Positions 41,520 through 63,640 of a stretch of 64,000 nt of DNA are shown piece by piece (position 1 is the stretch's first letter; each line of letters begins with the position of its first letter). The translations under genes were made by a program, and so were the position numbers. The notes beneath the pieces were generated by a model, which was not told the origin of the DNA, ran no database searches, and saw only the letters and a list, made by a program, of their open reading frames with translations. Source of the stretch: Bacteroidales bacterium (GTDB taxonomy: Bacteria; Bacteroidota; Bacteroidia; Bacteroidales; UBA932); NCBI GenBank assembly GCA_022653675.1, contig JALCST010000011.1, positions 19,946 to 83,945 on the forward strand. Reading direction: 5' to 3'.

Positions 41520-41563
41520 TCGTTGTGCTGCTACTGGTGCTGGTGCCAGTGCTTGCGGCCGGG

Positions 41564-41660
41564 TGTCGAACCTCCGGTTTGATTCCCACTTCGAGAGAAT
41601 CGGCCCTGGAGCCCATTCCGGGGCATGTGTGGGAACCGAAGCTCCGGTTGGGCCTCCCGG
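41564..41660. repeat. Dispersed repeat copy (TGTCGAACCTCCGGTTTGATT ... TGTGTGGGAACCGAAGCTCCGGTTGGG)
   Basis: Near-identical blocks recur in the same order at 61771-61866. Confidence 0.75.
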
Positions 41661-59241: not shown

Positions 59242-60591
59242 TCACAAACCTTCGTCCGAAAAACTGAAGAACTTGTTCCCGGCTATTACCAAATGGTCGA
59301 GAAGTGTTATGCTGAAAAGTGCGGATGCTTTCCTTAGGGCCGACGTCATCGACTTGTCGTATTCTCCCGGGAGGAGGTTTCCGGAAGGGTGGTTGTGGGC
59401 GATTATTATGGAACTCGCCAGCAATTCCACCGCACGTTTGACGATTATCCTGGGATCGAGGGTCGTTGAAGAAACTCCTCCCATGCTGACACGTTCCTTG
59501 GCAATCAGGCCGTTGGCTCTGTTCATATATAACGCCCAGCACTCTTCGTGTTCCAATCCCCGGAAGTCGTTCCTGATCAGTTCGAAAGCCGATTCCGACG
59601 ACTGGACGACGGGTCTTTGATGCGGTGTCTCGCCCATCATCCGCTTGCCGACTTCGAGGACCGTCGCCAGCAGGAAGCTTCGGTATCGCCCGATGTTTTT
59701 GTATCGCATCATATCTTCCGGCTTCTTGTTCCCCAGTTCCGTCAGGCTTCCTCCATTATCCCTCAAAACGGACTCTCCGGTCCCTTTCGGACAGATATAC
59801 CTGCTCCCGGAATTCAATATCAGGTCCAGCAAGTCCCCGTCGGACAATGTGCAAATCTCGTTTTCGGCGACGCTTTGCCGCATCTCATCAAGCCATTCGC
59901 TCCCTTTCGACTTTTCGTTAGTTCCTTCAGAACTTCGGACTGTTCCTACCGGACTTTCGTCTGTTTTCCCCGATCTTCTATCCATTTTTTTTCGATTCAT
60001 GTTTATTCTTTCTTGGTTTCCATTCATTTTCTCAAGGCTTTCGTTCATTCTTTTCGGACCTTCATTTGTTTTCTCAGGTTTTCTATTCATTTCTTTTGGT
60101 TTTTTGTCTGTTTCTTCCGGGCTTCGGTCCGTGCCTTTCGGACTCACGTTCATTCTTTCCTGATTTTCAGTAGTTTTCTCGGGTCTCACGTCCGTTATTC
60201 CCTGATTTTCAGTAGTTTTCTCGGGTCTCACGTCCGTTCTTCCCTGATTTTCGTTAGTTTCCTCCGGTCTCACGTCCGTTCTTCCCTGATTTTCGTTAGT
60301 TTCCTCCGGTCTCACGTCCGTACTTCCCGGCCTTTCGTTAGTTTCCTCCGGTCTCACGTCCGTTCTTCCCTGATTTTCGTTAGTTTCCTCCGGTCTCACG
60401 TCCGTACTTCCCGGCCTTTCGTTAGTTTCCTCGGGGTTTCCGATTCTTTTTCCTTGTTTTTCGTTTGTTCTTGCCTTTTCCTGATCCGTTCTTCCCTGAC
60501 TTTCATTCGTTTTCCCAGAGGTTTCGTCAGTTCTTTCCGATTTTTGCCCCTTTCTTTCCAGACTCTTATTCATTACTCCTGTTTTTTTCAT
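59242..60591 (-). CDS. radC: RadC/UPF0758-family JAB-domain protein with long N-terminal heptapeptide-repeat extension
   Basis: C-terminal half: CTLSDGDLLDLILNSG, YMNRANGLIAKERVSMGGVSSTTLDPRIIVKRAVELLASSIIIAHNHPSGNLLPGEYDKSMT (intact HxHPSG...D). N-terminal about 230 aa is made of 7-aa repeats. Confidence 0.9.
   Translation of the reverse strand: MKKTGVMNKSLERKGQKSERTDETSGKTNESQGRTDQEKARTNEKQGKRIGNPEETNERPGSTDVRPEETNENQGRTDVRPEETNERPGSTDVRPEETNENQGRTDVRPEETNENQGRTDVRPEKTTENQGITDVRPEKTTENQERMNVSPKGTDRSPEETDKKPKEMNRKPEKTNEGPKRMNESLEKMNGNQERINMNRKKMDRRSGKTDESPVGTVRSSEGTNEKSKGSEWLDEMRQSVAENEICTLSDGDLLDLILNSGSRYICPKGTGESVLRDNGGSLTELGNKKPEDMMRYKNIGRYRSFLLATVLEVGKRMMGETPHQRPVVQSSESAFELIRNDFRGLEHEECWALYMNRANGLIAKERVSMGGVSSTTLDPRIIVKRAVELLASSIIIAHNHPSGNLLPGEYDKSMTSALRKASALFSITLLDHLVIAGNKFFSFSDEGL
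59902..60573 (-). repeat. About 32 consecutive 21-bp units (42-bp higher-order) encoding 7-aa repeats in RadC
   Basis: Protein parses as TDETSGK|TNESQGR|TDQEKAR|TNEKQGK|...|TNERPGS|TDVRPEE|TNENQGR|TDVRPEE|... with no insertions or deletions of register; central units nearly identical in DNA. Confidence 0.92.
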
Positions 60592-60961: not shown

Positions 60962-61090
60962 GAGCGCAGCACTTTTCTTTCAAACATCTTGTAATCTACC
61001 TTTTATAAGGATACCACATATGTGAATATGGCAGGTTTGTCTTATTTAAATATTTGATTGTCATGGATTAGGAAGAAAAGTGCTGCGCTC
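60962..61090. repeat. 18-bp perfect inverted repeat pair (60962-60979 / 61073-61090)
   Basis: GAGCGCAGCACTTTTCTT versus AAGAAAAGTGCTGCGCTC, separated by 93 bp of non-coding DNA. Confidence 0.85.
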
Positions 61091-61173: not shown

Positions 61174-61755
61174 ACCGTAGGTAAATCTGGCAAACCTGCC
61201 TCACAGATATCCCACGGGTCGATTTTGGAGAATGCGTCAGACGATAACTGATCGACATATGGCTCCTGAAAGGGCTAACTTACTGACTGCCAACAGCAGT
61301 ACCCAAATTACCTACGATAAAATAGTCCTCGTCTTTAGGGAACGTTTTTCACCGTAGGTAAATCTGGCAAACCTGCCTCACAGATATCTCACGGGTCGAT
61401 TTTGGAGAATGCGTCAGACGATAACTGATCGACATATGGCTCCTGAAAGGGCTAACTTACTGACTGCCAACAGCAGTACCCAATTTACCTACGATAAAAT
61501 AGTTCTCGTCTTTAGGGAACGTTTTTCACCGTAGGTAAATCTGGCAAACCTACCTCACAGATATCTCACGGGTCGATTTTGGAGAATGCGTCAGACGATA
61601 ACTGATCGACATATGGCTCCTGAAAGGGCTAACTTACTGACTGCCAATGGCAGTACCCAATTTACCTACGATAAAATAGTCCTCGTCTTTAGGGAACGTT
61701 TTTCACCGTAGGTAAATCTGGCAAATAGGCTACAAAGATATCTTAAAGGCCGGGT
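61174..61755. repeat. 177-bp tandem repeat array A: three full units (61174, 61351, 61528) plus a degenerating partial fourth (61705)
   Basis: Units start (A)CCGTAGGTAAATCTGGCAAACC..., spacing exactly 177 bp each; units differ at only a few positions. Confidence 0.95.
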
Positions 61756-61770
61756 TGGAAACCTGTATTT

Positions 61771-61902
61771 TGTCGAACCTCCGGTTTGATTTCCTCTTTT
61801 GGGGAATCGGCCATGGAGAGCAGTCTGGGGCGTGTGTGGGAACCGAAGCTCCGGTTGGGTCACCCGGTTTGGGGTCATGCGCTCAGTGTCGAACCTCCGG
61901 TT
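61771..61902. repeat. Two dispersed-repeat copies (TGTCGAACCTCCGGTT at 61771 and 61887, plus TGTGTGGGAACCGAAGCTCCGGTTGGG at 61833)
   Basis: Same blocks and order as 41564-41660. Confidence 0.75.
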
Positions 61903-62333: not shown

Positions 62334-62356
62334 TGCTTAATTTATAAAATATTAAG

Positions 62357-62428
62357 TAGTGGGTACGGGAATCGAACCCATATGCCAAGAATGAAAATCT
62401 TGTATCCTAACCGTTAGATGAACCCACC
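62357..62428 (-). tRNA. tRNA-Glu (anticodon TTC)
   Basis: Minus strand GGTGGGTTCATCTAACGGTTAGGATACAAGATTTTCATTCTTGGCATATGGGTTCGATTCCCGTACCCACTA; anticodon stem CAAGA/TCTTG. Confidence 0.95.
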
Positions 62429-62952: not shown

Positions 62953-63640
62953 TTTTATCGTAGGTAATTTGGGTAAAATGGCCTTGCAGATAAGTCAGAG
63001 GCTTATTTTTAGGTTTCGAGTTGTTGAAGGTGAAGTAGCATTTAGCTCCTGGTGGCGATAACGCATTGATTATCAGCAGCAGTACCCAAATTACCTACGA
63101 TAAAATAGTTCTCGTCTTTAGGGAACGCTTTTCATCGTAGGTAAATCTGGCAAACCTGTCTCACAGATATTTCACGGGTCGATTTTGGAGAATGCGTCAG
63201 ACGATAACTGATCGACATATGGCTCCTGACAGGGCTAACTTATTGACTGCCAATAGCAGTACCCAAATTACCTACGATAAAATAGTTCTCGTCTTTAGGG
63301 AACGCTTTTCACCGTAGGTAAATCTGGCAAACCTGTCTCACAGATATCTCACGGGTCGATTTTGGAGAATGCGTCAGACGATAACTGATCGATATATGGC
63401 TCCTTACAGGGCTAACTTACTAACTGCCAATAGCAGTACCCAAATTACCTACGATAAAATAGTCCTCGTCTTTAGGGAACGCTTTTCACCGTAGGTAAAT
63501 CTGGCAAACCTGTCTCACAGATATTTCACGGGTCGATTTTGGAGAATGCGTCAGACGATAACTGATCGATATATGGCTCCTGACAGGGCTAACTTACTGA
63601 CTGCCAATAGCAGTACCCAAATTACCTGCGATAAAATTTC
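62953..63640. repeat. 177-bp tandem repeat array B: one diverged unit (62957) and three conserved units (63134, 63311, 63488; last truncated)
   Basis: Unit starts spaced exactly 177 bp; same consensus and orientation as array A. First unit diverged internally but conserved at its ends. Confidence 0.95.

Follow-up and report, generated by a model that had tools for sequence, protein, structure and literature searches.

RAYT-linked repeats have been studied most closely in Proteobacteria. The REPINs of Pseudomonas fluorescens are described as having ends at a perfectly conserved distance and forming tandem clusters that include flanking sequence (PMC3116915), and E. coli BIME-1 carries an IHF site between its REPs (PMC2817692). 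TIRtrons are RAYT-like genes flanked by TIRs, with accompanying TIR repeat families (PMC3733652). In the published description of TnpA-Y1 subclass 2.6 (Bertels RAYT group 5), the members are mostly from Bacteroidetes and are flanked by atypical secondary structures; these flanking repeats have copies elsewhere in the genome and lack a GT[AG]G foot (PMC6006769).

We analyzed a 64,000-nucleotide stretch (the window) on contig C11 of a Bacteroidales-type genome (G000; 2.18 Mb, 23 contigs, 85.8% complete) that contains tandem arrays of a non-coding repeat, here called Fam1. Fam1 is very probably a non-autonomous REPIN-like mobile repeat, cognate to a RAYT (TnpA-REP) type Y1/HUH transposase encoded in the same genome. 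With about 36 dispersed copies, some of them flanking the RAYT gene, it is best viewed as a REPIN/BIME-like member rather than a new class of DNA.

Structure of the arrays

Tandem Repeats Finder placed array A at 61174-61725 (period 177, 3.1 copies, 98% matches, 0 indels, score 1062), confirming the three full units at 177-bp spacing reported in a first-pass annotation of this DNA. Each period consists of a 141-bp body and a 36-bp spacer, and the spacer has relatives in Fam1 arrays elsewhere in the genome. The linker was originally given as 27 nt; we count 28 letters in the quoted sequence, and unit bodies are separated by the full 36 bp found here. Each unit body runs from CGTAGGTAA at its start to TTACCTACG at its end. 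The unit boundaries are inverted repeats, as the same annotation held, with arms longer than stated: the terminal inverted repeat is about 24 bp (TTTTCAYCGTAGGTAAATYKGGYA and its complement) and reaches both outward and inward beyond the CGTAGGTAA and TTACCTACG ends.

Beyond its three full units, array A includes the truncated left portion of a fourth, joined to a repeat of a third family, Fam3. This had been described as a decaying fourth unit. The unit is indeed partial, but similar junctions recur at C10:68559, C3:183415, C12:5333, C10:81932, and C6:10922; thus, the junction is mostly inherited and not a product of decay within array A. We detected no coding signal in Fam1, as most copies have stops in every frame and there is no three-base periodicity. 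This agrees with the earlier statement that no long ORF runs through the units, and coding sequence was rejected on these grounds.

A second array (array B), absent from the first-pass annotation, lies 1.8 kb from array A and comprises four Fam1 units (62959-63630). The Fam2 element beside array A belongs to the same family as the elements that flank the second RAYT gene of the genome. Several loci share one composite, in the order Fam3, Fam2 (129 bp), linker, one to three Fam1, truncated Fam1, and Fam3, which resembles a mosaic element.

Table 1. Repeat elements and motifs in the window
Feature	Position	Strand	Details
Fam2 element beside array A	60962..61090	+	129 bp, ends GAGCGCAGCAC...GTGCTGCGCTC
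Array A unit 1	61176..61316	+	141-bp Fam1 element
Array A unit 2	61353..61493	+	141 bp
Array A unit 3	61530..61670	+	141 bp
Spacer between array A unit bodies	61317..61352; 61494-61529; 61671-61706		36 bp
Truncated Fam1 unit, array A	61707..61760	+	joined to Fam3
IHF-consensus-like motif, array A unit 1	61276..61288	-	TAACTTACTGACT on + strand; 8/9 informative bases
IHF-consensus-like motif, array A units 2 and 3	61453-61465; 61630-61642	-	same place in unit
Fam3 repeat	61771..61859	+	~91 bp; part of composite Fam3-Fam2-Fam1-Fam3
Array B unit 1	62959..63099	+	141 bp, 62% identical to array A unit 2
Array B unit 2	63136..63276	+	141 bp
Array B unit 3	63313..63453	+	141 bp
Array B unit 4	63490..63630	+	141 bp

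Fam1 across the genome

Searching the unit against its own genome and relatives, as the first-pass annotation had proposed, revealed a dispersed family. The genome search gave 41 matches, and reading the genome stretches around them yielded 36 full Fam1 copies at about 17 places. The inverted ends stand at a conserved distance around a variable interior: 34 of the 36 full copies are 141 bp long and two are 140 bp, while the interiors are a median of 56% identical in pairwise comparison, and as little as 32%. Measured against the middle unit of array A, identity is 98-99% for the other array A units and 95-96% for all but one of the four array B units, versus mostly 56-84% for copies at other loci. 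This high identity within arrays points to local homogenization. Copies are intergenic, occur in both orientations, and number one to four per locus, next to no conserved gene and in no conserved gene orientation. The Fam1 end motifs are found almost only at Fam1 loci.

Among 200 genomes of the same bacterial family, counting this one, no Fam1 copy was found in the others, all of which belong to different genera. The phages and plasmids searched gave no match, and a viral or plasmid origin was therefore rejected; a 15-base pattern hit viral contigs once per contig among the matches listed, an uninformative result. A scan of genome contigs for the rpsT neighborhood also returned no Fam1 copy. 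Integron attC sites, CRISPR, and invertible promoters were dropped on anatomy, given the lack of matching core sites, the homologous interiors, and the shared orientation within an array.

RAYT genes flanked by Fam1 and Fam2

A 290-aa ORF on contig C2 (G000:C2:100422-101294), RAYT-A, encodes a Y1/HUH transposase and has two Fam1 copies on each side (99915 and 100108 upstream, 101531 and 101708 downstream), 56-61% identical to array A. RAYT-A matches NCBIfam NF047646 (REP-associated tyrosine transposase) with E=3.3e-12 and 46.5 bits, below the cut-off of 80, and Pfam Y1_Tnp with E=1.6e-4 and 22.2 bits, just under the cut-off of 23. It possesses both the HuH and the YxxxNP motifs: H61 and H63 (HxH) and Y118, N122, and P123 (Y-x3-NP) are invariant in ten aligned RAYT homologues. 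Fam1 copies also enclose other gene segments (on C3, on C10, and rpsT with tRNA-Glu in the window), and the RAYT gene is thus not the only one to be bracketed.

The other Y1 gene of the genome (C2:61563-62483) is 37% identical to RAYT-A and passes the Pfam Y1_Tnp cut-off (40.1). It is bracketed by Fam2: a single element lies upstream, and downstream there is a tandem run of three with a spacing of 170 bp. Every one of the 19 Fam2 elements in the genome stretches read around copies has the same length. When the whole genome was searched for the exact ends, with lengths free to vary over 31 bp, 16 copies came up, of which 15 measure 129 bp and one 128 bp. Each RAYT gene is thus matched by one family of dispersed extragenic copies (about 36 for Fam1, at least 16 for Fam2). 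Neither RAYT had a relative in a PDB sequence search.

RAYT homologues are present in 105 of the 200 same-family genomes, and all eight that were scanned match NF047646 below its cut-off. An automated screen for inverted repeats (arms of at least 15 bp, span of 90-150 bp) detected an element beside 7 of 23 RAYT loci versus 4 of 266 control blocks; the two RAYT loci of G000, where arms are short or imperfect, were not flagged. End sequences of the flanking elements differ between most loci. Two of these families of flanking elements were counted genome-wide: one has 13 dispersed copies in the related genome G010, mostly of 111 or 120 bp, and the other has four copies in G184 and three in G105, of exactly 104 bp in every case, with unrelated interiors.

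Comparison with described RAYT-linked repeats

Because Fam1 copies bracket a RAYT-type gene, we place the family with the REPIN/BIME/TIR elements, and the first-pass view that the repeat fits no ordinary feature class is not supported. The same annotation had also offered a MITE-like tandem element. Its descriptive part stands, as Fam1 is dispersed, non-coding, bounded by terminal inverted repeats, and clustered in tandem, but the kind to which it belongs is RAYT linked. Fam1 is not a canonical GTAG REP, since GTAG is present (in CGTAGG) with no hairpin at its foot in either Fam1 end.

Judged by the published description, Fam1 and Fam2 are RAYT-linked REPIN/TIR elements of the subclass 2.6 kind. 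They share with that subclass a Bacteroidetes-type host, a RAYT-like Y1 gene, and non-GTAG flanking repeats with dispersed copies. They differ in that the available account of subclass 2.6 mentions atypical secondary structures only, whereas the elements here have fixed lengths of 104-141 bp, inverted-repeat boundaries, and an IHF-like motif inside; in addition, RAYT-A has THIH and YIMYNP where the subclass has NH[LIV]H and YIH[QN]NP (PMC6006769). As portrayed for P. fluorescens, REPINs resemble Fam1 in several ways: inverted ends keep a conserved distance around a variable spacer, each RAYT has a single family, and tandem clusters take in flanking sequence. However, REPIN ends are REP hairpins of GTAG/GTGG type about 71 bp apart, while Fam1 spans 141 bp and has no foot hairpin of its own (PMC3116915). 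The TIRtron/TIRYT account likewise features a RAYT-like gene, TIRs unrelated to GTAG REPs, and moderately abundant clustered families; the GGGGWSAS motif it gives for many TIRs is absent here, and TIRYTs probably belong mostly to subclass 2.1 (PMC3733652).

Fam1 also recalls the published picture of BIMEs in its inverted ends with an IHF site (BIME-1), its tandem clusters (BIME-2), and its mosaic of repeat types, but it lacks GTAG-footed REP hairpins, and the IHF site here is a consensus match only (PMC2817692). Tandem repeats and an inverted-repeat element also occur together in the minisatellite-containing MITE outlined for Porphyromonas gingivalis, likewise from a Bacteroidales genome; its tandem repeat is internal to a single MITE, whereas in Fam1 arrays whole elements are the repeat unit (PMC4596501). 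Given the resemblance to subclass 2.6, TIRtrons, REPINs, and BIME-1 as published, we assign Fam1 to a known, RAYT-linked kind of repeat.

A fixed IHF-consensus-like motif

Every array A unit carries, at the same place, a motif that resembles an IHF binding site (Table 1). The E. coli IHF consensus is WATCARNNNNTTR. The interiors of the G184 and G105 elements share mainly ATCWR-N4-TTA, at positions 31-42 from each end, which is close to WATCARNNNNTTR. We evaluated the motif by permuting interior columns with relatedness preserved. At the right end of Fam1, 8.6 of the 9 informative bases match at offset 29 (p=0.001); the left end is weak (6.1, p=0.03). Both ends of Fam2 reach 7.5 at offset 32 (p=0.002 left, p=0.001 right), the G184/G105 elements 7.6 at offset 30 (p=0.002), and the G010 elements 7.25 at offset 17 in reverse orientation (p=0.002). 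A fixed IHF-consensus-like motif is thus present in four unrelated element families, with p of about 0.001-0.002, at or near the floor set by the permutation number. As Fam1 and G184 prompted the idea, Fam2 provides the more independent test.

The sequence makes the motif a candidate IHF/HU site or, alternatively, a candidate subterminal RAYT site. The genome has at least one HU/IHF-family gene (C13:10542-10808); the consensus used is that of E. coli, and binding is predicted. A protein-binding array, one of the options raised in the first-pass annotation, is therefore possible in that every unit has the fixed site, albeit as a consensus match only. In the portions of the RAYT, REPIN, TIR, and BIME literature compared, a fixed subterminal IHF-like site across RAYT element families is without description.

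Alternative explanations

The ~24-bp terminal inverted repeats, non-coding body, and dispersal of Fam1 would also suit a classical MITE, derived by internal deletion from a DDE-type insertion sequence, with the transposase absent from the incomplete assembly. We consider this improbable, as the end motifs are almost confined to Fam1 loci, Fam1 was seen to bracket a single transposase gene, which is a RAYT, and a second RAYT repeats the arrangement with a different element family. Moreover, decaying MITEs do not hold their length as Fam1 does, with interiors that diverge to 32% identity. That the arrays are a tandem family of structured non-coding RNA, or an RNA element that is transcribed, is very unlikely. 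Fam1 ends are complementary, an inner hairpin keeps 92% standard pairs, and the covariation score exceeds most shuffles, but no Rfam family matched the arrays at E up to 1, and the reverse strand folds no better as RNA than its shuffles do (z -0.81). The outer stem is almost invariant (7 of 9 pairs never vary), pairs changed on both sides number 2 versus 2.5 in shuffles, and on either strand the pairing of the inner hairpin is poor, at different columns. Element interiors in related genera are unrelated, with ends and length fixed. The structured RNA proposed in the first-pass annotation thus finds little support.

A different matter is the reading that selection maintains the arrays as places where a nucleoid protein or gyrase binds, since this is compatible with a mobile origin followed by secondary use, like that of BIME-1 with IHF and BIME-2 with gyrase. 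The predicted site at a fixed offset, the HU/IHF-family gene, and tandem Fam1 clusters at several loci are consistent with it; the varying copy number per locus and the lack of a conserved neighboring gene or orientation argue against it, and we regard such selection as possible but rather doubtful. That the arrays are an assembly artefact or a collapsed repeat is extremely unlikely. The assembly is a draft, and array B ends 0.4 kb from a contig end, but units differ by single-base changes, and arrays of about the same period and different sequence are found on several contigs. The exact copy number of an array may nevertheless be wrong in the assembly.

Proposed mechanism and implications

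We infer the mobility of Fam1 and any host function it may have; no target-site duplication was established, and the genomes compared, all from other genera, showed no empty site. If Fam1 is a REPIN-like element, as we favor, RAYT may act as proposed for E. coli TnpA-REP and Pseudomonas REPINs: it would bind the Fam1 ends as single-stranded DNA, nick an end with its tyrosine, and excise and reinsert the element as single-stranded or hairpin DNA. Arrays A and B would then have grown locally, through unequal recombination or slippage. A protein of the IHF/HU type, sitting about 30 bp in from an end, could bend the DNA and bring the ends close to each other, and the geometry of this bent nucleoprotein complex could set element length. 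Such bending would explain the fixed length of Fam1.

We tentatively suggest, with the odds against it, that Bacteroidales RAYT elements have a distinct architecture: each end would combine a family-specific inverted-repeat tag with an IHF/HU-like site at a fixed distance, and a transposition complex governed by DNA bending and helical phase would fix the length. If true, RAYT mobility would be host-factor dependent. The REPIN length is fixed despite a variable spacer, and a conserved host-factor-like site offers a testable cause. The system provides two full families, each with its transposase, within a single Bacteroidales genome, parallels in related genera, and measurable rules (fixed length, free interior, and a motif about 30 bp inside).

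Other repeats and neighboring genes

Fam3 (61771-61859 and 41563-41656 in the window) is a third repeat family of about 91 bp with 15 matches and inverted-repeat-like ends, for which no cognate RAYT gene was found. A 42-bp (14-codon) tandem repeat at 60139-60432 is a coding minisatellite in the N-terminal part of an apparently RadC-like ORF (59242-60591, minus strand). At the contig end, 63796-64000 has matches of ~94% to repeated pieces in the terminal part of contig C22 (10516-11079), and C11 and C22 probably meet in a tandem repeat. Fam1 lies near tRNA genes at four loci: Glu (window 62356-62428), Ala (C12:4740), Arg (C1:148306), and Lys (C6:10398). Small paralogous lipoprotein genes (MKK..LLCSCDPE..; L270:7843-8933 and L272:11184-11711) sit beside or between Fam1 copies on C3 and C6, with ~75-78% DNA identity. 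Short perfect palindromes of 41-43 bp stand downstream at other RAYT loci (L284:2310-2350; L292:2341-2383 and 2680-2722), a different, more REP-like repeat type.
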